Under the pieces are notes generated by a model. It saw only the letters and a program-made list of their open reading frames with translations. It had not been told where the DNA came from and did not search any database. Below are positions 5,316 through 18,849 of a stretch of DNA of 43,917 nt, in pieces. Position 1 is the first letter of the stretch. Every line of letters starts with the position of its first letter. A program made the translations under genes and the position numbers. The stretch comes from Flavobacteriales bacterium (GTDB lineage Bacteria > Bacteroidota > Bacteroidia > CAIKAF01), in assembly GCA_025451295.1 (NCBI GenBank), contig JANWKQ010000044.1:1-43917 (forward strand), written 5' to 3'.

Positions 5316-7166
5316 TTAGCCTTTAATGATCTTGGTAGTTGTACTATTGTTTTTGGAAGTGGCTTTTAAAAAGTAGGTTCCCTTTGCCAACATTTCGCAA
5401 GGGATCACAATGTTATTGAGACCATTGTGCAAAGGGCCAATTGATTTGTTGTATACCACCGCTCCCTGGATATCAATGAGCTGTAGTTCTACGGTTGCCT
5501 CTTCTAAAATAAATAATTGAAAATATAGGTTTTCTGCCACCGGATTGGGATACACGCTTAATAACTGTATTTGAGAATTCCCCTGATATACAGATGCTAT
5601 GCCAAAAGGTCTTGGCCATAATGGTGATTGAAGGTGAACCACATCCGGTCTTGGTACCGCAGGGCTTACTGCCTGGTTCAAGAACCTTTCATTATCATTT
5701 ACATACCAACTTTCGCCTGACATGTAACTACCATCACTATTGTCGATCGTGTTTACAAAAAACCAATCACTTTGGGTTCTGGTTTGGTTGATGTCAAGAA
5801 TCAAAAATCCTTTCTTAGTGATCTCAGTATACTTAATATGATCGTTAAATGCCTGGATAAGAGAAACCGGAACACCTATGGGGGATCCGGGAGATGTAAC
5901 ACTTGTTACCACAAACTCAACAAAGGCGCTTCCCGTTCCATCAGGATTATAACTTGCAGTAGGAACATCATTGGCCCAACTGGTATGAATATCTCCGGTT
6001 AAAGCCACAACATCGGTAATATTACTATCCAATACATAATTCATAAGCTCCAGCCGGTCGGCAGCATATCCATCCCATTGATCTGCGTTTACAGGAACAC
6101 CAAAAACTTCAAGTGGTGCAATCATTACTTGCTGACCAAGGACTTTCCATTGTTTGGTTGAGTTACTTAGGTTTTGTTTTAACCAGGTAAATTGGTCGTC
6201 ACCTAAAATAGTTCTGTCCGTGTCATTCACATCCGGACTGGTTGCGGCCACTTGTTCATCTCTTCCATGTATCCTGGTATCGAGCATAATAAAATCAACC
6301 AGGTCACCATAGGGAATTATACGATAAATAATAGAATCATTACCTACACCTTGTTCGCGTATCGGAATCCATTCAAAATAGGCCTGTCTTCCATATTGCT
6401 CACGATTTACCCAGGTGCCTTCGGCACCTTCCGTATGGTTTTCAGCACCATCCTTATAGGAATCATTTGCATATTCATGATCATCCCAAACATTAAAAAA
6501 AGGAAATTGCTGATGCAGTCGCATCAGATCCTGATCCAAATGGTAAGTAGAATAACGGGTACGATAATCACTTAAAACCGTAATCTCATTTGCTGGTTCC
6601 CAAATCCTATTGGCGGTTGCATTAAACGCATAACCATCATGTTCATATTCATAAATATAATCGCCTAAATGGATGATCGCATCCACATCATTTCTTGAGG
6701 TAATGACCTTATAAGCATTAAAATATCCGGCTTCATAGTTAGCACAAGATACTACTGCAAAACGTAAACTATCGACGGACCCTACAGGCGCAGTTTTGGT
6801 TCTTCCCCGAATGGAATTAAACCCATTGTGGGTAAACTCATAAAAATAAAATGTATTCGGTGTTAACCCGGTCACATCTATTTTAACTGTATAATCAAGA
6901 TTTTGGTCAGTGGTAAATACTCCGTTTTGCACTATATTGGTCATACCGGTATCGGTAGCAACTCTCCACAGAACATTGGCCGAACCTACCCAACCAGTAT
7001 CAGGTGTAACCCTTGTCCATATTATAACCCGGTCTGACATCGGATCTCCGGAAGCTACACCATGATAGAACGGTTTCAGCATGGGATTCAGGGTAAGTAT
7101 TTTTTGAACTTGTGAAAATCCGGAAACTGTAAACATCAAAAAGAAAGAGAATAAAATGGGCCTCAT
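5316..7166 (-). CDS. phoD: PhoD-like alkaline phosphatase D family protein with T9SS type A sorting domain
   Basis: Signal peptide; FYHGVASGDPMSDRVIIWTRVTP; VVSCANYEAGYFNAYKVI..DVDAIIHLGDYIYEYEHDGY; FFNVWDDHEYANDSYKDGAENH; LTGDIHTSWANDV; C-term YPNPVAENLYFQ...KGTYFLKATSKN. Confidence 0.93.
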   Translation of the reverse strand: MRPILFSFFLMFTVSGFSQVQKILTLNPMLKPFYHGVASGDPMSDRVIIWTRVTPDTGWVGSANVLWRVATDTGMTNIVQNGVFTTDQNLDYTVKIDVTGLTPNTFYFYEFTHNGFNSIRGRTKTAPVGSVDSLRFAVVSCANYEAGYFNAYKVITSRNDVDAIIHLGDYIYEYEHDGYAFNATANRIWEPANEITVLSDYRTRYSTYHLDQDLMRLHQQFPFFNVWDDHEYANDSYKDGAENHTEGAEGTWVNREQYGRQAYFEWIPIREQGVGNDSIIYRIIPYGDLVDFIMLDTRIHGRDEQVAATSPDVNDTDRTILGDDQFTWLKQNLSNSTKQWKVLGQQVMIAPLEVFGVPVNADQWDGYAADRLELMNYVLDSNITDVVALTGDIHTSWANDVPTASYNPDGTGSAFVEFVVTSVTSPGSPIGVPVSLIQAFNDHIKYTEITKKGFLILDINQTRTQSDWFFVNTIDNSDGSYMSGESWYVNDNERFLNQAVSPAVPRPDVVHLQSPLWPRPFGIASVYQGNSQIQLLSVYPNPVAENLYFQLFILEEATVELQLIDIQGAVVYNKSIGPLHNGLNNIVIPCEMLAKGTYFLKATSKNNSTTTKIIKG

Positions 7167-8913: not shown

Positions 8914-10374
8914 TTAATTTTTTATACCGAATTTTTCGTTTACCCAAATTTCGTAGTTGAACACTTTATTTACATTCACGCTATTCAATTTCAGATAATC
9001 ATTCACCAGTTTCAACATTTCTTTATCTGTCCGGTAGTTGGCCTGACCACTCATTTTAAGAATAATATCAAAAAGAACCTTTTCGGCACCTTCATATTCC
9101 TTCCATTCGGTATTCAAACTCGATTTGATCTGCGAAAGTCTATACTCAAATGTGTTTACATCGGTTAGTTCGTGTCGGGCCATCAATTCAAGTAAAGCCA
9201 GTTCTACCTTTAAATTCATATCGATCTTTGGATAATAATCATTGAGGTAAACTTTTTGGAGTGTTTTTACGACCTGCTTGTAGTTTTTCTGGACGAAATA
9301 CAAGAAGGCAAGATTGGCATAATTAAAGACGATAAAATAAGGATCATTGATAATGGTTCCCTTGGTTAATACTTCCAGTTGAAGTTCAACGGCCTTGTCA
9401 GTATCCAATACTGCATATGAATTGATCTGTGCCTGATAATAAAAATAAATATACCGGTCAAAAAGCATTTTATCATGTTCCAACAACGCATCATAAAGCA
9501 CTTTACCAGTTTCGATCACCTCCTGGTACTTACGCTGTACCAACAGAGAGTTGGTAAGGTATACAAGTTGTTCGATCTTAATATCATGTGTTTGCTTTGT
9601 AAAAATACTTGTTTTTAAAAAATCTTCACGTGTTTCAGCAATATATTTTTCCAGTTCAACAAACTTTTGCTGTTGAACAAGGATCTGACTGATCGCTTTA
9701 TAGAATTTTATTTTAAACTGGTTGGATTTGAAGATCTCTTTGTCGCTGGCAAATGTTTTCAGTGTTTTATCAATTTCCTTTGAAACGCTCAACTGCCCTG
9801 CCAGATTTTGGGTCGATTTTAACCTGAAAGTCATTACAGCAACGATCTCATCAATGTTTCTTAAAGTGTTGAACATTTTAAAATTGGTCCTTCTCTTTTT
9901 TATGTAAAAATCAGGATCCTTGGTTAATGAGTCTTTACAAAAGAGGATCATTTCACCATAAAGAAAATCGAGGAGGGTATATTGTTCACTCCCTTCGGCA
10001 TACTTGATGGATTTCAGCAAATAATATTCAGCCAGGGGCTCTATACCTTTTGAGTGAAAGATCCGGTATAAAATCAGGTTTTGTTCACTTAAAAAAGTGG
10101 TTTTGCCTTCGGAGGTATTGAGTTCAATTAAAGCCTGATTAATGTTATTTACCAATCGGTTCTTAAGGCGGTAAAGCGTGCCCATCTCATTTGACTTTGG
10201 CCCATATAATTTTTTCATGATCACCTCATCATCGGGTGACTGTTCTTTATTCTTGAATGACTTATATAATTGAAAGAGCTGAAACGCCTTGGACTTATCT
10301 GCCTCGAGTTTTTGCTGGATATGCCCAAGGGTATATCCATCCAGGTTTCCGATCAGTTCTAATAGTACATTCAT
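8914..10374 (-). CDS. Conserved hypothetical alpha-helical repeat (TPR-like solenoid) protein, paralogue of 15524..16987
   Basis: 486 aa, no signal peptide, helix-rich; shares QFKIKxYKxISQIxVQQxxFVELExY and THDxKIE blocks with the second copy. Confidence 0.75.
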   Translation of the reverse strand: MNVLLELIGNLDGYTLGHIQQKLEADKSKAFQLFQLYKSFKNKEQSPDDEVIMKKLYGPKSNEMGTLYRLKNRLVNNINQALIELNTSEGKTTFLSEQNLILYRIFHSKGIEPLAEYYLLKSIKYAEGSEQYTLLDFLYGEMILFCKDSLTKDPDFYIKKRRTNFKMFNTLRNIDEIVAVMTFRLKSTQNLAGQLSVSKEIDKTLKTFASDKEIFKSNQFKIKFYKAISQILVQQQKFVELEKYIAETREDFLKTSIFTKQTHDIKIEQLVYLTNSLLVQRKYQEVIETGKVLYDALLEHDKMLFDRYIYFYYQAQINSYAVLDTDKAVELQLEVLTKGTIINDPYFIVFNYANLAFLYFVQKNYKQVVKTLQKVYLNDYYPKIDMNLKVELALLELMARHELTDVNTFEYRLSQIKSSLNTEWKEYEGAEKVLFDIILKMSGQANYRTDKEMLKLVNDYLKLNSVNVNKVFNYEIWVNEKFGIKN

Positions 10375-10485
10375 TTAGTAATCAAATAAAATATACAGTG
10401 TTAATTTTCAATACCTTATGCAATAATACAAAAAACCATAACGTAATGCAAATAAAAAAAACTCCGGTTTGAGGCAGGAAATCCC

Positions 10486-10493
10486 TAAATTTG
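10486..10493 (+). promoter_or_regulatory. Candidate Bacteroidetes -7 element TAAATTTG
   Basis: Matches TAnnTTTG. Located about 50 bp before the CDS at 10544. The nearest TTG is only 14 nt upstream, so the -33 element is not well supported. Confidence 0.35.
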
Positions 10494-10543
10494 TTTAACC
10501 GACCTAAACAACTTACGTTAGAGAGGAATATAAGGGTATACTT

Positions 10544-11260
10544 ATGAAAACCAGGTTCGCAGTAATAACGGGCATTCTATTATTTACTTTTTTCGGAAAA
10601 GTGCAGACGAGCCATGCGCAACTGGTCTTTCTCAAGACCGATTCTATCATTCCCCTGGATCCAATTATAATGAACGATTTCGTTGACTTTGAAATACATG
10701 TTGGCGTAAAAAATATTATTTCATTATTACCGGATGTTGCCTTGGGTAATATTTTTTACTGGTACCGAACGGATTCAATGATTAGCTCTGGCCAGCCCGC
10801 CAGAATCGTCGATTTTGATTTATCTATACTATTAATTAGTGATGGATATATTGATACAGTTCCCATTGAGATGTTGCCCAATGAACTCCGCACAGGACCT
10901 GTTAATCTTATTATATTATGGCCGGCAATGATCAACCCCCTTGTTCTTGATACAGTTCAGGACACCCTTGGTGTTCTGGTGGAGGGTTTTCTTAGTACAC
11001 CTAACGAATATCCATTACAATGCGGAAATATTATTTTCCCTTGTCCTGCTATTCAGTTTGTAAATATCCAGTCTGAAGAAATCAAATTCATCGACCATGT
11101 CCAGCTTATTTCGATGAGTGGACAGGTTATGCAAACATACAGGCACGAAGAATTCCAAAACGGAAGTATTGATATTTCGAACTATCCTTCGGGTGAATAT
11201 GTTGTACAACTTCATTATTACGACAATCGGGTCGTCAGGACGAAGATTCTCAAGCATTAG
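10544..11260 (+). CDS. Small secreted protein of a local three-member family with degenerate T9SS-like C-terminal domain
   Basis: Signal peptide MKTRFAVITGILLFTFFGKVQTSHAQ; YWYRTDSM and LRTGPVNLIILWPAM motifs shared with 17306..18058 and 18109..18849; C-term VQLISMSGQVM...SGEYVVQLHYYDNRVVRTKILKH. Confidence 0.75.
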   Translation: MKTRFAVITGILLFTFFGKVQTSHAQLVFLKTDSIIPLDPIIMNDFVDFEIHVGVKNIISLLPDVALGNIFYWYRTDSMISSGQPARIVDFDLSILLISDGYIDTVPIEMLPNELRTGPVNLIILWPAMINPLVLDTVQDTLGVLVEGFLSTPNEYPLQCGNIIFPCPAIQFVNIQSEEIKFIDHVQLISMSGQVMQTYRHEEFQNGSIDISNYPSGEYVVQLHYYDNRVVRTKILKH

Positions 11261-11315
11261 TTTGTTGTAGACTAATAGCATCCATTTATGGAGAAGCCAA
11301 CCACGCAAATAGGTT

Positions 11316-11352
11316 AGCGTTTTGTTTAATTCTGAACGCTTTCGTTTTTTTT
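11316..11352 (+). terminator. Candidate intrinsic terminator after 10544..11260
   Basis: AGCGTT...AACGCT stem followed by ttcgtttttttt. Confidence 0.55.
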
Positions 11353-11583
11353 CAAAAAAATCCATTCAAATTCCGGTCGCACAATTGCAATCAGCAGAAT
11401 TCTATGAGTTTATTTTAAGTTAATATTCATCGCGTAATAAACTATTTATTATATATCTAATTATCATTACGTTAAACTAAAATAAATCCAATTTAGCAGT
11501 AATATTTTGGCAATTGCCAGATACTGGTCCGGATGGATGTGATCTACCTTTGATATAACTTAAACATGAAATAATTCTTTAAC

Positions 11584-13002
11584 ATGAGAACAAAAACTAA
11601 TTATTATTATAAACCGGGCTTGTTTATTATAATGTTGTTTTTGGCGCTTGGCTCAAAAGTTTTTGGGCAAGTATGCACACCCGATCCCGGTTATACAAGT
11701 ACTGGGATTTGGCCCGATACCATTACAAATATGGATCCGGCTTGTGTAGGAGCTTCATATCAAATGGATTTTACGGTGGTGGTACCTTCGGATACAGTTG
11801 TTGCAGGGTTCCTTTTTATCGTCGACTCTACTATTATTACATCTGTGTCTGGATTACCTGCAGGATTTAGTTATACCTGCAATCCATCATCCTGCAGATT
11901 TTTAGGTGGAACATCTGGTTGTTTTATTGTTAGCGGAAATCCTACGGTTCCGCTTATCGGAAGCTATAATGTATCAGTTAACATCACCACCTATGCGCAT
12001 AATGCGGTGCTTGGAAACCAGTTCTTTCCGCAATCATTTTCAGGTTATGATCTCAACATTGGCAATCCCCCAAATGTTGGAACTAATAGTTCACCCGCTT
12101 CATGCGGTATGAGTGATGGAATGGCTTGGGCGATCGTAGCCGGAGCAGCTCCATTTACCTATTTATGGAATACGCTGGATGTAAATGATACCCTATTCAA
12201 TGTTCCGGCCGGGTTATATGATGTAACCGTAACGGATAACATTGGATGCACTGCCACAGGCCTTGCAACAATTATTAACCCTGGCGCTCCAAGTATTGAT
12301 AGCGCTACCACAACGAATCCTTTATGTTTTGGTGATACCGATGGTGACGCCACCGTATTTGCTTCAGGTGGATCACCCGGTTATTCATACAGCTGGACCA
12401 GCGGAGGTTCGGCAGCTACTGAAACGAATTTAGGAATGGGAACATATACTGTTACAGTAACTGATATATCCAATTGTCAAACATCAACTATTGTAAGCAT
12501 CACCACCCCATCTGCAATCGGCACTAGCACAAATGTAACTCCTGAAACCTGTATAGGTTGTTTGGATGGATCGGCAACAGTGAACGCATCCGGAGGAACT
12601 CCCGGTTATACTTATAGCTGGGCTCCATCAGGTGGAACGGCAGCTACAGCGAATGGTCTTGCTGCCGGTAATTATACCATTACTGTAACCGATAGTCTTG
12701 GTTGTGTGGCAACCAATACTGCCAATGTATATAGTACAGCAAGCATCGATGATCAACTTACAGAAAGTTGGAAAATTTATCCGAATCCTGTTCAGGATTT
12801 CATAATGATAGATGTAGTGACACCATCTGAAATAAATACAATCAAACTATATGATCTGAGCGGAAGATTGTTAATCGCTAAAAACTACAGCGGCGCCATT
12901 TTCCAGTTCGACATGTCAGTACTAAAACAGGGAACCTATTTATTAGAAATCAATAACGGTAAACTATCACGGGTATTTAAGGTGATTAGGGACACTAAAT
13001 AA
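11584..13002 (+). CDS. Secreted SprB-repeat protein with T9SS type A sorting domain
   Basis: Three repeats of the form CxGxxDGxAxxxAxGGxPxYxYxW...LxAGxYxVTVTDxxGC; C-term IYPNPVQDFIMIDV...QGTYLLEINNGKLSRVFKVIRD. Confidence 0.88.
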   Translation: MRTKTNYYYKPGLFIIMLFLALGSKVFGQVCTPDPGYTSTGIWPDTITNMDPACVGASYQMDFTVVVPSDTVVAGFLFIVDSTIITSVSGLPAGFSYTCNPSSCRFLGGTSGCFIVSGNPTVPLIGSYNVSVNITTYAHNAVLGNQFFPQSFSGYDLNIGNPPNVGTNSSPASCGMSDGMAWAIVAGAAPFTYLWNTLDVNDTLFNVPAGLYDVTVTDNIGCTATGLATIINPGAPSIDSATTTNPLCFGDTDGDATVFASGGSPGYSYSWTSGGSAATETNLGMGTYTVTVTDISNCQTSTIVSITTPSAIGTSTNVTPETCIGCLDGSATVNASGGTPGYTYSWAPSGGTAATANGLAAGNYTITVTDSLGCVATNTANVYSTASIDDQLTESWKIYPNPVQDFIMIDVVTPSEINTIKLYDLSGRLLIAKNYSGAIFQFDMSVLKQGTYLLEINNGKLSRVFKVIRDTK

Positions 13003-13018
13003 TCCAAAAAATATCCAA

Positions 13019-15229
13019 ATGAAAACAAAAAAATATATTTTCTATAAACTGTCTATCGTAATATTATTCGGGACCTGTGCAAACCAAATGTTTGCACAGC
13101 CGAATAATAATTGTGCAAGTGCAACTGTTTTAACTGTTGGGGCAGCATGCACCAACGGTACCAATGTAGGATCCAATGTAGAAGTTGGAGAACCGCCGGC
13201 AGGTTGCTGGCTAACACCTCCCAACAATACCGTATGGTATAGATTCACCACCGGCGCAGCTGGCAACTATACTGTTTCAACCGATAATGGTGGAACAACA
13301 GACACCCAGCTAAAAATCCTTTCAGGGGCTTGCGGAGCTTTTGCAACGGTTGCCTGCAGCGAAGATGATGGAACCACCAATACTTTAGCAGCTGTTGCAA
13401 CCGCAGCTTTGGCTGCTGCAACAACCTATTATGTGCAAGTGGATGTTTATAATAATGGAACAGGTCCGTTTTGTATTAATGTAGCATACAATCCACCACT
13501 TGCAAATGACTGTATCTTTAACGCCATTGATATTACAGCATTAATAGATGGTGTAAGTTTGCCATTAACTCCTTTTAATTGCAGGGCTCCCGATGTTTTT
13601 TCGTCAGCCCTTAGCCCAGCAACCAGACAGGATCTTTCCGGAGACCCAAACGGTTGTGAAATCTGTGACCTTACCTGTACCACTAAAAATCCAGATCATA
13701 GAGACGTCTGGTATAAGTTTACAGTTAGTGCAGCGACTCCTCCAACCTGGTTAACGGTATACAATGAATTACCAGAACCGGGAACGCCTCCCACTTTTGC
13801 AACAGGATTGTATAGTGGCACCCCAACAGGAACATGCGGGGTAGGACTGATAGGCGGAATGACACAAATTGATTGTTCCGCCGGTGATATTTTACCTATT
13901 TGTAACTCTCCAGCTGCTTGTATTGATGGAGGTGGTTATGGTGCAAGAAACAAAGCAATCTGCACTACCCCTGTAAGACCAAGATTAGACATCAGCGGAC
14001 TCGCTTTTGGCACCTATTATTTCAGGGTTTGGGATTGGGGTGGTGGAGCACCAGATGCAGGTAGCCTGGTTATTTGTGCTGAATCAGTGAACACAAATCC
14101 GCCAACGGAAGATAAGTGTCCAACAACAAATACGATTGGCTGTGCTGACGGTCCACCAGCCAATGCAGAATTTGATTCCACCTATATAAATTTAAGTAAT
14201 GCCGGAATGACTGGAAATTCATGCAACACAGCGCCAAATGAACCGCAGGTCGCTGCAGGTCCAACAACTGATATACAGGATCCTTGTTTTGGGGGTTGGT
14301 CAACCGGTATTGGTTATGTAAATAATGTAATGAATAATTCTGCCATCTATCGTTTTGAAGTGAACGCATTGGCACCTTGTGTTTGCAGACCTGATATTAC
14401 TTTAAGCAATATTAGTTATGGAGGAAGAGCCGGATTTGCTGCCCAGGTGCAGGTGATGAACAGTCCATGCGCAGGTGGAACAAATGCGGTGATGGCATGG
14501 AGTACAACCCAATCTTGTCTTGAAATGCGAATGGCGGGAAATGGAACAATTCCGAATGGAATATATTATATAGTAGTTGACGGGCAGGATGGCGAACTGG
14601 TTAAATACGATCTTACCTTAAAATTAAATTATTCGGGAGTTGGTTGCACACCTTTAGTGACAAATATTTGCGACGTACCTCTTCCGGTTGAATGGGTGGC
14701 ATTCACAGTAGAACCAAACATTGATAATGATGCGATGATCTGGTGGTCTACTGCATCTGAAACCAACAACCGGTTATTTACAATTGAGCGATCACAGGAT
14801 GCCATTGAATTTGAACCTATACAAACGGTAAAAGGGGCGGGGAACAGCAATACGACGCTTTCCTATCAAACCATCGACAAAGATCCTTTGGAGGAGACCT
14901 CTTATTACCGGCTTAAGCAAACTGATTATGATGGAAAATCGAGTTATTCAAAGATAGTTTCTTATGTAAACAATAAAGCTACGAAACTTATGTCAATCTA
15001 TCCAAACCCAGCACACAGCCTAATCACTATTCAGCTGGATGGTTATTTACCTTCCACCCAAATAACCATCACTAACCTGATCGGAACCTCTTATTATTCC
15101 GAAATGGTAAACAGTCCGGACAAAAAATCGGTACAGGTGGATGTAAGCACATTCCCTATGGGACTTTATACCGCAAAAATAATGTTGAGTAATGGTAATA
15201 TAATCATATCGAAATTTTTAAAAGAATAA
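13019..15229 (+). CDS. Large secreted T9SS type A cargo protein
   Basis: Signal peptide MKTKKYIFYKLSIVILFGTCANQMFAQ; VWYRFTTGAAGNYTVSTDNGGTTDTQLKILSG (PPC-like); SYYRLKQTDYDGKSSYSKIV; YPNPAHSLITIQL...MGLYTAKIMLSNGNIIISKFLKE. Confidence 0.85.
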   Translation: MKTKKYIFYKLSIVILFGTCANQMFAQPNNNCASATVLTVGAACTNGTNVGSNVEVGEPPAGCWLTPPNNTVWYRFTTGAAGNYTVSTDNGGTTDTQLKILSGACGAFATVACSEDDGTTNTLAAVATAALAAATTYYVQVDVYNNGTGPFCINVAYNPPLANDCIFNAIDITALIDGVSLPLTPFNCRAPDVFSSALSPATRQDLSGDPNGCEICDLTCTTKNPDHRDVWYKFTVSAATPPTWLTVYNELPEPGTPPTFATGLYSGTPTGTCGVGLIGGMTQIDCSAGDILPICNSPAACIDGGGYGARNKAICTTPVRPRLDISGLAFGTYYFRVWDWGGGAPDAGSLVICAESVNTNPPTEDKCPTTNTIGCADGPPANAEFDSTYINLSNAGMTGNSCNTAPNEPQVAAGPTTDIQDPCFGGWSTGIGYVNNVMNNSAIYRFEVNALAPCVCRPDITLSNISYGGRAGFAAQVQVMNSPCAGGTNAVMAWSTTQSCLEMRMAGNGTIPNGIYYIVVDGQDGELVKYDLTLKLNYSGVGCTPLVTNICDVPLPVEWVAFTVEPNIDNDAMIWWSTASETNNRLFTIERSQDAIEFEPIQTVKGAGNSNTTLSYQTIDKDPLEETSYYRLKQTDYDGKSSYSKIVSYVNNKATKLMSIYPNPAHSLITIQLDGYLPSTQITITNLIGTSYYSEMVNSPDKKSVQVDVSTFPMGLYTAKIMLSNGNIIISKFLKE

Positions 15230-15288
15230 TATAAATAGATAAACGTCTTTTTTTGTTTTGCAAACCTGTTCTCTAAATGTTGTATTAG

Positions 15289-15342
15289 AAGGTAGTCGAT
15301 CGGCGATCAATAAAATGAGAGTTGTATTGGCTACCTTTTTTT
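15289..15342 (+). terminator. Candidate terminator / structured 3' region after 13019..15229
   Basis: AAGGTAG...CTACCTT stem with T7 tract; loop contains a GATC-GGC-GATC mini-hairpin. Confidence 0.5.
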
Positions 15343-15523
15343 CCACCTCACGAGCAGATTAGAAGTAACCACGAAATGGGAAAGAAAATGATAAAAAAAA
15401 TAAATACGAGTTTTTTGTTTTGCTTAATGGCCCTCTGGGATTTGTTCATTTTAGGAAGCAAGAAAAAATAGGATCTTGAGAAAGTAAAAGTTCGCAGGTT
15501 TCCCTGACCTTTATTAACCTTTC

Positions 15524-16987
15524 CTAATAATCAAGCTTTAACTTTGATGTGAGCCAGCCATTGTAGTTGAACAGTTCGGTATCTCCAATCCCGGAAGAAA
15601 TAAAGTCACGGGCTTTTTCCTTAAGTTTTTTATTTTTCATAAAATCCGGGTCGGTTCCGATGGATTCAATCAATGGTAAAAGGATTTTTTCAGGTCCTTC
15701 AAAATTTTTCCACTCATTTTTAAGAGAGGTCTTTACCTGTGGTAGCTTATATTCGAAGCTATCAAAATCACTCATATCGATCCGGGTAATGAGCTCTAGA
15801 ACAGACAAAGGAACCTTCAATGAAATATCCGCTTTCTCATAAAATTCGTGGATATAGATCTTTTGAAGATTCCGGATCACCAGGTTGAAACTTCCTTTGG
15901 TATAATAGAGGTAAGCAAGGTTTGAATAATTCAGAAGTGAATAATATGGATTGGTAATAATGCTCTTGTTATTAATGATCTCGTTGATGGTTTCAATCGC
16001 CTTATCTGGATTGATCACCGAATAGGCGGCAATCCTTACCTGGTAATAGAAATAAATATATTTTTTGTAGAGGGCTTTATCAAACTGGAGCAAGGCTGTG
16101 TGTAAGGTTTCACTGAAGGCAAGGGCCTGTGAATGTTTTCTGAGCAGCAGAAGGGTGTTGATGATATAAATAAGGATCTCGATCTTGGTATCATGGGTAT
16201 TTTTATTAAACACCTTGGTTTTTTCAAACTCCTCAAATGTATCTGTTAGATATTGTTCCAACTCCACAAATTCTTTTTGCTGAACAAAGATCTGTGAGAT
16301 CGTCTTGTACATTTTAATTTTAAACTGCACCGAATTCAAAAGTTCCGGATCCGTAGAGAATTTGCTGATCGTTTTATTTACCTCCTTGGATATGTTCAGT
16401 TTTTCTCCGAGATTCTGGGTAACCTTTAGTCGATAACTGATCACCGCAAGGATATCATCAATCTGCCGGATCTTGGCGAGCATAGAGGAATTCGTCTTTC
16501 TCTTATCTATATAAACTGCCGGGTCATTATATAAAGTTTCCTTTCCAAGTTGAATATAGAGTCCATAAATAATATCCAGGTATTCAAACTGCTCTGAACT
16601 CAACGCTTGCTTTTCGGCTTTCTCCAGATAATATTTGGCCAGTTTATAAATCCCTTTTTGGTAGAAGATCTTATATAAGTTGAGATAATTACTGATGTCG
16701 GCCGTATTATAATTAGAGAATTCAATGTCTGACAGGTAAATATTAATGAGATCGACGAGTCGATTCTTCATTCTATAATAAGAACTTTGACCAGCTGATT
16801 TACCGGCATATATTTTTTTGCGTACAACCAGGTCGTCTACCTTGGTATCACCCACATAGGATTTATATTCAGCAAAAATCTGATAGAGGATGGTATCTCT
16901 TTGGGCAAATTCGGCCTTTAGTTTTTTGTCCAAATGGGCTAAAGCACGCTTATCTATATGACTTATTACCTCAAAAAGTATATTCAT
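15524..16987 (-). CDS. Conserved hypothetical alpha-helical repeat (TPR-like solenoid) protein, paralogue of 8914..10374
   Basis: 487 aa; near-colinear match to the first copy (MNILFEVISHIDKRALAHLDKKL...; VQFKIKMYKTISQIFVQQKEFVELEQYL; NTHDTKIE; SLKVPLSVLELITRIDMSDFDSFEYKL). Confidence 0.75.
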   Translation of the reverse strand: MNILFEVISHIDKRALAHLDKKLKAEFAQRDTILYQIFAEYKSYVGDTKVDDLVVRKKIYAGKSAGQSSYYRMKNRLVDLINIYLSDIEFSNYNTADISNYLNLYKIFYQKGIYKLAKYYLEKAEKQALSSEQFEYLDIIYGLYIQLGKETLYNDPAVYIDKRKTNSSMLAKIRQIDDILAVISYRLKVTQNLGEKLNISKEVNKTISKFSTDPELLNSVQFKIKMYKTISQIFVQQKEFVELEQYLTDTFEEFEKTKVFNKNTHDTKIEILIYIINTLLLLRKHSQALAFSETLHTALLQFDKALYKKYIYFYYQVRIAAYSVINPDKAIETINEIINNKSIITNPYYSLLNYSNLAYLYYTKGSFNLVIRNLQKIYIHEFYEKADISLKVPLSVLELITRIDMSDFDSFEYKLPQVKTSLKNEWKNFEGPEKILLPLIESIGTDPDFMKNKKLKEKARDFISSGIGDTELFNYNGWLTSKLKLDY

Positions 16988-17102
16988 TTTATGTAATGCT
17001 TATATAGTTATACTTCTATTAATCAATAATTTAAATATTCATTTTTAGTTTCTAACATGTAATATTACAACTAATTTCCTATTCAACCAAGCTCCAGGGC
17101 CG

Positions 17103-17110
17103 TAAATTTG
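17103..17110 (+). promoter_or_regulatory. Candidate Bacteroidetes -7 element TAAATTTG upstream of a leader region
   Basis: Matches TAnnTTTG; a similar box occurs in the paralogous divergent intergenic region at 10486. No clear -33 TTG. Confidence 0.35.
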
Positions 17111-17244
17111 TATTGTTGATTGATGATAGATTAAAAATTGACGGATATGTTGAGATTAACTATAAAATCAGAATCATCATTTTCAACTTTAACATTAGAC
17201 GAAAACAAAGAAATTAAAGATAGTAAACATAGCCCGGTTTATAG

Positions 17245-17279
17245 AAAAAGAGGTGCAGAGGGATTCTCACCTCTTTTTT
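17245..17279 (+). terminator. Strong intrinsic terminator-like hairpin inside the 5' region of the downstream secreted gene
   Basis: AAAAAGAGGTG-CAGAGGGATTCT-CACCTCTTTTTT; stem of about 11 bp with T6, 26 bp before the ATG at 17306. Confidence 0.7.
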
Positions 17280-17291
17280 CTTTTTTATTCG

Positions 17292-17299
17292 TATATTTG
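17292..17299 (+). promoter_or_regulatory. Candidate second -7 element TATATTTG immediately upstream of ATG 17306
   Basis: Matches TAnnTTTG, 6 bp before the start codon; would give a near-leaderless transcript; -33 not evident. Confidence 0.35.
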
Positions 17300-17305
17300 A
17301 ATAAT

Positions 17306-18058
17306 ATGAAGAGTAGAGCCAACTTATCGTTACAAACATTACTGCTTCTGATAGGGCTGGTGGCTATCCCCACATTTTCCAACGCCCAGGTAAAGGGAAT
17401 TATTGATTTTGCCGCTATTGATGAAGACAATACGGTATTAGGTTATTCTGCCACCTGCACCACACATGTTAAATTTATAAGCAGCATTACTAATAACGAT
17501 ACAATGGTCAATGGAAACTTGATCTATTGGTATCAAACTGATTCAATGGCTGCTGTTGACAATAACTGGTATGAATATATTGATGATAATCCTTTCCCTG
17601 AATTTATTCCAATTGGGGGCCAGTTTGATCTCTTTCCTTTTTTCTGTGATTCATCTCAACTTAGAACTGGACCGGTTAACGTAATTATTATATGGCCATC
17701 ACTTATTAGTGCAACCACACCAATGGTTGATTCTGGAATGTATGTTATACCAAATGTTTATGTAGGTACCACGATTGGAATAGAAGAAGAAGGCCTATAC
17801 AATTATGGTTCAACAGTCTTTCCAAACCCTGCTCAATCCATGCAGCTTGTTTTTATCAATTCAAAATATAGTAAAGAAATTGGGAGGGTAACAGTGGTGA
17901 ATGCGATGGGGCAGGTGATGAATTCCAGAGAATTTAATGAGTATGAATCTAGTCAAGGATATATTGTTCCGACTGATGACCTGCGAGCAGGTATTTACAA
18001 TATTCAGATTTTTTACAAAGACAACAAAACAGAAGTCGTCAAGTTCATCAAGAATTGA
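17306..18058 (+). CDS. Small secreted T9SS-type protein, member 2 of the GPVNxIIxWP family
   Basis: Internal ATG at 17306 gives signal peptide MKSRANLSLQTLLLLIGLVAIPTFSNAQ. The ORF-track start at 17138 (TTG) would bury it. YWYQTDSM, LRTGPVNVIIIWPSL; C-term STVFPNPAQSMQLVF...RAGIYNIQIFYKDNKTEVVKFIKN. Confidence 0.78.
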   Translation: MKSRANLSLQTLLLLIGLVAIPTFSNAQVKGIIDFAAIDEDNTVLGYSATCTTHVKFISSITNNDTMVNGNLIYWYQTDSMAAVDNNWYEYIDDNPFPEFIPIGGQFDLFPFFCDSSQLRTGPVNVIIIWPSLISATTPMVDSGMYVIPNVYVGTTIGIEEEGLYNYGSTVFPNPAQSMQLVFINSKYSKEIGRVTVVNAMGQVMNSREFNEYESSQGYIVPTDDLRAGIYNIQIFYKDNKTEVVKFIKN

Positions 18059-18108
18059 TTTTTATTCCCACGCCATCTATTGCGAACAGGTTTTTTTAAA
18101 GATGCAAA

Positions 18109-18849
18109 ATGAATAAAAAGATAATTTTAATATTTATAAGCTGTCTACTTTTGACCGCTTCCTCCTTTGCTCAGATGCAGCGGAAAATTGTGATCGATTC
18201 AGTCGTCTATGATCCGGATCAACCGGTATTAGTAGGCACCACGATATATATATTTCCAAGAATACATCTTACTGACTCGGCTAATAACTGGGTAAGTGGT
18301 AATGGTAATGTCCGTTATTGGGTTAGGTCTGATTCGATGAATCTAAATGGACATCCGCCGGTTTTAATCGATAACCTTCCCATATTTGAGTCTATTCCTG
18401 CAGGAGGAAGGTTTGATACTTTAGCTTTGCCGCTTGATTCACTCGATCTCAGAGTTAGTAGTACTGGCCCCGTTAACGTCATCATCATCTGGCCGTCTTT
18501 AGTGAAACCAGGAATTGATCTGGCAGATTCAGGATTTGTTTTGATCAACCAATATGTATACACGGATATCGGTATTGACGAAGAAAATATTCCACCAAGC
18601 ACCATTTATCCGAATCCATCTGGTAGTTTTGAATTGGTATATATCCGAAAACAATATACCCAACTCATCGATCATATTACGATTGTCGACAACCTTGGTC
18701 AACCCGTATTTATAAAGCAGTTTACTCCGGAGGATGAAAGTTCAGGTTATCTTCTACCTACCCATGAATTACGATCGGGTATGTACTATCTGCAGATCTA
18801 CTATAAGGATAAGAAGATGGAAACCGTGAGGTACATCAAGAGTCAATAG
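18109..18849 (+). CDS. Small secreted T9SS-type protein, member 3 of the GPVNxIIxWP family
   Basis: Signal peptide MNKKIILIFISCLLLTASSFAQ; YWVRSDSM, TGPVNVIIIWPSL; C-term STIYPNPSGSFELVYI...RSGMYYLQIYYKDKKMETVRYIKSQ. Confidence 0.8.
   Translation: MNKKIILIFISCLLLTASSFAQMQRKIVIDSVVYDPDQPVLVGTTIYIFPRIHLTDSANNWVSGNGNVRYWVRSDSMNLNGHPPVLIDNLPIFESIPAGGRFDTLALPLDSLDLRVSSTGPVNVIIIWPSLVKPGIDLADSGFVLINQYVYTDIGIDEENIPPSTIYPNPSGSFELVYIRKQYTQLIDHITIVDNLGQPVFIKQFTPEDESSGYLLPTHELRSGMYYLQIYYKDKKMETVRYIKSQ

Follow-up and report, generated by a model that had tools for sequence, protein, structure and literature searches.

What could link a cytoplasmic protein built of helices to a small exported protein encoded divergently from it, and to what does this arrangement owe its presence in two copies within a single stretch of DNA? 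This question is raised by contig JANWKQ010000044.1 of a Flavobacteriales bacterium (GenBank assembly GCA_025451295.1; 43,917 nucleotides, hereafter the window), in which two genes of one family, HEL1 and HEL2, each diverge from a gene for a small secreted protein of the WP family, WP1 and WP2, the latter being followed by WP3. An earlier sequence-only reading of this locus had proposed a duplicated, co-inherited system linked to the type IX secretion system (T9SS) and acting as a regulator, as a chaperone-effector pair or in surface adhesion. In our analysis, HEL is probably a transcription regulator of an undescribed family, one not in the libraries searched, which would activate WP and T9SS cargo genes and control its own expression. 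Because the DNA signal shared by the pair also marks the genes of other exported proteins, this suggests a regulator family for surface display. The promoter motif, the T9SS domains of the WP proteins and a third HEL copy are new relative to the earlier reading.

The divergent pair and its inheritance

HEL1 and HEL2 are full-length paralogues (486 and 487 aa, 44% identity over the full length, E 4e-123), and neither has a hydrophobic N-terminal segment, which makes them proteins of cytoplasmic type. A third copy, HEL3 (48% identity), lies on another contig of the same assembly (C232). Searches of Pfam, NCBIfam, PHROG and PADLOC returned nothing significant for HEL, and sequence searches of the PDB no convincing relative. 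In the TPR Pfam search HEL1 scores 12.7 bits, below the cut-off of 27.8, and a weak TPR_1 match is seen in 14 of 26 members. A model built from 26 sequences (mean pLDDT 85) predicts an all-helical protein with an N-terminal bundle and a TPR-like superhelix, whose best PDB structure matches are generic TPR superhelices, with phage Rap among the weak ones. Literature searches, made mainly among openly available papers, found no description of a HEL/WP family.

The three WP proteins share the motifs YW-x-x-(T/S)DSM and TGPVN-x-II-x-WP. In the family at large, a hydrophobic N-terminal segment ending near AQ, as read from the sequences by eye, is present in nearly all members; then come an N-domain in which G, W and P are invariant (G-x-N-hhh-WP) and a type-A C-terminal domain (CTD). 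By this domain, which scores above the curated cut-offs of both TIGR04183 (31-36 bits, cut-off 23, E 2e-7 to 5e-9) and PF18962 (28-36 bits, cut-off 27), WP1-3 are T9SS substrates. A model from 24 sequences (mean pLDDT 78) predicts two beta-sandwich domains, the placement of which is unsure because pTM is 0.51; its structure matches are generic immunoglobulin-like (Ig-like) proteins. With an Ig-like domain and a T9SS CTD, WP is a plausible surface protein.

Of 59 relatives from across the class, both genes are present in 21, just HEL in two, just WP in one and neither gene in 35 (Fisher p 1e-12). The two HEL-only relatives carry distant HELs, and the WP-only match sits at a contig edge. In a second sample, of 296 further genomes of the phylum, the WP domain (E<=1e-4) was found once, as a weak match in a 1848-aa frame; distant HEL homologues are common there, and the WP domain is essentially absent. 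The contig profile scan used a closer subset of HELs, the family-wide alignment being too diverged.

Gene order tells the same, the back-to-back pair recurring in many uncultured Bacteroidota. In a public set of 80 named loci, 76 HELs have a readable upstream neighbour, and 69 of these 76 face a divergent WP gene with a T9SS tail, so that the pairing is not due to chance. In distinct paired loci the pair is present in 53 of 53 and the next most frequent neighbour family in just 21, and it is therefore the pair, not the neighbourhood, that is conserved. This sole other frequent neighbour (40% of distinct loci, e.g., L104) is an ispG-like gene, by its sequence probably ispG itself. In the HEL tree, the WP-paired sequences form one 60-row group (support 97) with few exceptions, namely contig ends, a third module described below, long-branch rows and a clade of seven rows with HEL and WP unlinked; all seven genomes of this clade keep one WP gene elsewhere.

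What the sequence-only reading had seen is confirmed, and its duplicated, co-inherited module linked to the T9SS is supported by these data: the paralogues without signal peptides, the three small proteins with their shared motifs, and the SprB-repeat and T9SS cargo genes beside the first module are all present, while the comparison of neighbourhoods and the structure search that it had proposed gave the co-occurrence and the generic TPR matches described above. It had taken HEL homologues occurring mostly without WP as evidence against a linked system; this is the case in the wider superfamily only, where leuA or YiaA-like partners are found, and within the clade of the window's copies WP pairing is the rule.

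The shared promoter motif and the genes it marks

When the divergent intergenic regions are oriented with HEL on the left and WP on the right, they carry a 15-bp motif, TTTGAAC(G/A)CGTAAGA. Matches of at least 11/15 are found in 68 of 83 regions, compared with 11 of 83 in a reversed control. The parts TTTG and GTAAGA are near-invariant; the core CGTAAG reads CGTAAT in two cases, the window's genus and the leuA-facing subfamily. Spacing is rigid as well: where a strict WP -7 box (TAnnTTTG) is detected, it mostly starts 38-40 bp after the motif, and where a HEL-directed -7 box is detected, it mostly lies 5-6 bp from it. Placing the T of the -7 element at -12, in line with the published consensus (PMC6847099), puts the motif at about -66 to -52 of WP and at about +2 to +17 of HEL, the predicted positions of a class-I activator and of autorepression, respectively. 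Motif, spacing and -7 box occur together in seven of 23 HEL-positive relatives and in none of 36 HEL-negative ones. As is expected of a regulator, a conserved operator stands in HEL's own promoter and in those of its candidate targets, and is tied to the presence of HEL. An RNA element in the 5′ untranslated region of HEL is unlikely, because the motif also lies upstream of the promoters of unlinked genes; the window itself gave no Rfam match.

The motif extends beyond the pair. All 59 relatives were scanned for a 13-mer, TGAAYRSGTAAGA, whose sites were tallied by hand. In HEL-positive relatives, eight of 25 non-module sites precede a secreted gene by 67-90 bp and share its orientation, five of the eight genes being T9SS-tailed among the readable parts; for a 350-aa member the distance is 31 bp from the first in-frame start and ~76 bp from the start ahead of the signal peptide. 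None of the 13 sites examined in HEL-negative relatives is so placed. Operator-like 13-mers were also seen inside WP coding sequences (G028:C146:3184-3196 and G016:C32:12501-12513), either by chance or as internal sites. In 25 further HEL-positive genomes, the 15-mer occurs 18 times (once in the control), 11 of them at the module; six of the seven other sites are 65-85 bp upstream of secreted genes, and four of these six have a -7 box at 38-40 bp. In total, 14 other secreted genes of HEL genomes, mostly T9SS-tailed, bear the motif 65-90 bp upstream, a placement that by position alone is far beyond chance if 400 secreted genes per genome are assumed.

Which protein reads the motif

If HEL is the regulator, its N-terminal all-helical domain would bind DNA, recognising TTTGAAC(G/A)CGTAAGA, while the TPR-like superhelix would sense a ligand or a protein. 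From the upstream position, HEL would activate WP along with further genes for secreted proteins, most of them exported by the T9SS; within the HEL promoter, this site would allow bound HEL to repress HEL, a task that a second site may take over in longer intergenic regions. WP, a small Ig-like T9SS substrate that is probably displayed at the surface, would be the main target.

Two observations in trans bear on this. In the unlinked clade, the motif is lost from HEL's own promoter, and the GTAAGA core is nevertheless kept in the six WP promoters with readable upstream DNA: four match at 10-12/15, each exactly 39 bp from its -7 box, and in the remaining two GTAAGA is at apparently the same place. 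The second concerns HELs without WP partners. A remote subfamily (L083-L099, family f61), found in several genera of one family, diverges from a leuA-type gene, by its sequence a 2-isopropylmalate synthase, and carries TTGG(G/A)T(G/A)T(C/T)GTAAT(A/T) ~39-40 bp ahead of the -7 box of this gene. Since the same protein family here faces another target with a related motif in the same geometry, this is the best evidence that HEL, and not an unrelated factor, reads the site. Another subfamily (L073-L078, family f45) diverges from a gene for a two-helix, YiaA-like membrane protein, and each of these subfamilies has its own conserved intergenic block.

Several points weigh against HEL as the regulator. 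Profiles of its N-domain gave no convincing Pfam or PDB match and no known DNA-binding domain, although three helices with helix-turn-helix-like spacing are predicted at residues 29-89. Covariation between motif and HEL residues was inconclusive. The -7 boxes and start sites are predictions from sequence. The 13-mer contrast between HEL-positive and HEL-negative relatives is modest (p about 0.02), the per-site chance estimate hangs on the assumed number of secreted genes, and exact-motif regulons are small, with 0-4 extra sites per genome. Finally, the window's own promoters lack the exact 15-mer (best 8-10/15), and its operators for this reason rest on position and two-species conservation; in the WP1 promoter of the sister species (G001), the operator could not be placed likewise.

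Some of these points favour a different arrangement, in which HEL, WP and T9SS cargo are all controlled by another regulator that binds the motif. HEL would then itself belong to the regulon, for instance, as an adaptor, chaperone or quality-control factor that handles WP or cargo in the cytoplasm prior to export. The missing DNA-binding domain and the inconclusive covariation would fit this, and so would the generic TPR matches, as TPR proteins often bind proteins. Nevertheless, such a factor would have to follow the presence of HEL, to which the motif is tied, and to recur with a related motif and the same spacing at leuA, an unrelated target; moreover, the unlinked clade keeps HEL even though the motif has gone from the HEL promoter. 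This alternative is, consequently, rather unlikely.

A dedicated chaperone-substrate or immunity pair, with HEL binding the WP preprotein and keeping it export-competent or inactive, would account for the strict one-to-one co-inheritance. However, the genes are nearly always divergent and not co-operonic, the shared operator reaches many unrelated cargo genes, the partners of related HEL subfamilies, leuA or a YiaA-like gene, encode no exported substrate, and PADLOC gave no match, all of which makes this reading very improbable. Of the roles proposed earlier, that of regulator is supported by the shared operator, the regulon and the divergent orientation, while nothing supports a chaperone-effector. 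An anti-phage or toxin-antitoxin module was rejected, with no match in PADLOC or PHROG. A short intergenic region between divergent genes may persist passively, but a neutrally kept bidirectional promoter between functionally unlinked genes is hardly credible here, as the pair stays while most flanks are shuffled, WP and HEL are co-retained even when unlinked, and motif and spacing are kept where the proteins have little identity left and where the genes are unlinked.

HEL as a regulator would be a widespread, unnamed candidate with a predicted operator, promoter geometry and targets, and hence directly testable. It would also offer a first clue to the function of TPR-like Bacteroidota proteins of ~500 aa, which form a large superfamily without annotation. 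More tentatively, HEL could be the founder of a Bacteroidota-wide family of transcription factors with an undescribed helical DNA-binding domain and a TPR sensor, each subfamily driving its divergent target. In the WP-facing subfamily, export might be coupled to expression, for example, by the sensing of non-exported WP or cargo in the cytoplasm; WP would then be a target of a T9SS surface regulon and at the same time its signal. More helical proteins of ~490-510 aa, apparently of the same superfamily, were seen near HEL (L063:14227-15690 and L064:10432-11970); the latter groups with distant HELs in the tree.

Features of the window and comparison with known systems

The features are collected in Table 1. 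Modules have been duplicated as units within the window's genus, and the arrangement in the sister species is that of the window. In the sister species, the sequence before sprB, TAGCGTAATATTT, has about the same spacing as GCAGTAATATTTTG in the window. Longer intergenic regions of the genus hold two conserved operator-like copies, and a second GTAAT/GTAAG block, kept in the sister species, directly adjoins the start codon of HEL2 and HEL3 (weakly, of HEL1). The HEL N-domains of the genus have lost KEE..R and RKD residues that are conserved in other HELs, which agrees with the changed motif and proves nothing. The contig with module 3 ends within a WP gene, and contig C255 (L017:3-485, G000:C255) starts within a further, different one; these are probably tandem copies, WP4 and WP5, that broke the assembly.

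Table 1. Genes and putative promoter elements of the HEL-WP modules (window positions unless a locus is named).
Feature	Sequence	Position	Strand	Remarks
HEL1		8914..10374	-	486 aa, all-helical; N-domain of ~95 aa followed by TPR-like superhelix; putative transcription regulator
Putative HEL operator for WP1	CATAACGTAATGC	10437..10449	+	~38 bp upstream of -7 box; diverged from family consensus
Predicted WP1 -7 box	TAAATTTG	10486..10493	+	-7 consensus from PMC6847099
WP1		10544..11260	+	238 aa; Ig-like domain (TGPVNLIILWP) between signal peptide and T9SS type-A CTD; diverges from HEL1
Weak operator-like sequence before sprB	GCAGTAATATTTTG	11496..11509	+	~38 bp ahead of predicted -7 box
Predicted -7 box before sprB	TACCTTTG	11545..11552	+	
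SprB-repeat protein with T9SS CTD		11584..13002	+	probable regulon member
736-aa T9SS cargo		13019..15229	+	galactose-binding-like + PPC + CTD; directly downstream of SprB gene
HEL2		15524..16987	-	487 aa; HEL1 paralogue
Second operator-like copy	TTTATGTAATGCTTAT	16988..17003	+	abuts HEL2 start; conserved in sister species; putative autoregulation site
Putative HEL operator for WP2	TTTCTAACATGTAATATTAC	17049..17068	+	conserved in sister species
Predicted WP2 -7 box	TAAATTTG	17103..17110	+	
WP2		17306..18058	+	250 aa; in-frame ATG within longer open reading frame; long leader; divergent partner of HEL2
WP3		18109..18849	+	246 aa; tandem paralogue of WP2, 42% identity
Module 3		L016:7790-11747 (G000:C232)		HEL3 divergent from 595-aa T9SS-tailed gene, then WP gene cut by contig end
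Module 3 operator-like sequence	GATATAGTAAGAAA			before T9SS gene
Consensus-type putative operator	TTTGAACGCGTAAGA			
Putative operator of leuA-facing subfamily	TTGGGTGTCGTAATTA			

The long WP2 leader contains a hairpin with a T-run, AAAAAGAGGTG..CACCTCTTTTTT (~17244-17279, +), which is conserved in the sister species and may be an attenuator; a further -7 box, TATATTTG, is found 6 bp before the WP2 ATG. The same neighbourhood includes a gene for a PhoD-like alkaline phosphatase with a T9SS CTD (5316-7166, -).

In size and layout, WP is similar to PorA of Porphyromonas gingivalis (PGN_0123), described in the portions of PMC7712824 cited here as a 246-aa protein with a signal peptide, an Ig-like N-domain and a T9SS CTD that is proposed to pass a signal from the surface on to regulators of T9SS expression. 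Those portions mention no HEL-type partner. Membership of WP in the PorA family was rejected on sequence grounds, as PorA-N (PDB 6KJK) is among neither the WP profile hits (E<=10) nor the top 50 structure hits, the two not having been compared directly in a pairwise manner.

Regulation is likewise tied to type IX secretion in the PorX/PorY/SigP system, which, according to the cited parts of PMC4800418 and PMC8050853, comprises a two-component system and an extracytoplasmic function (ECF) sigma factor acting on T9SS component genes. The T9SS exports many Bacteroidota surface proteins, and the regulation treated in these parts concerns the machinery, not the cargo. In contrast, the putative HEL operator lies upstream of a housekeeping-type -7 box before cargo genes. 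A SigP/ECF promoter reading of its TGAAC was rejected on two grounds: 38-40 bp separate the end of the motif from that box downstream, and the SigP target motif proposed there is a different one.

The layout proposed for HEL, a small N-terminal DNA-binding domain followed by a TPR-like sensor, resembles that of regulators combining a helix-turn-helix (HTH) with TPRs (Rap/RRNPP, MalT and SARP types), although HEL is unrelated to them in sequence and has no recognisable HTH, BTAD or ATPase domain. Similarly, HEL is not homologous to LysR-type or other families of divergent activators, but the HEL-WP pair would work as their autoregulating activator-target pairs do, with one operator in a divergent promoter serving both the regulator and its main target.

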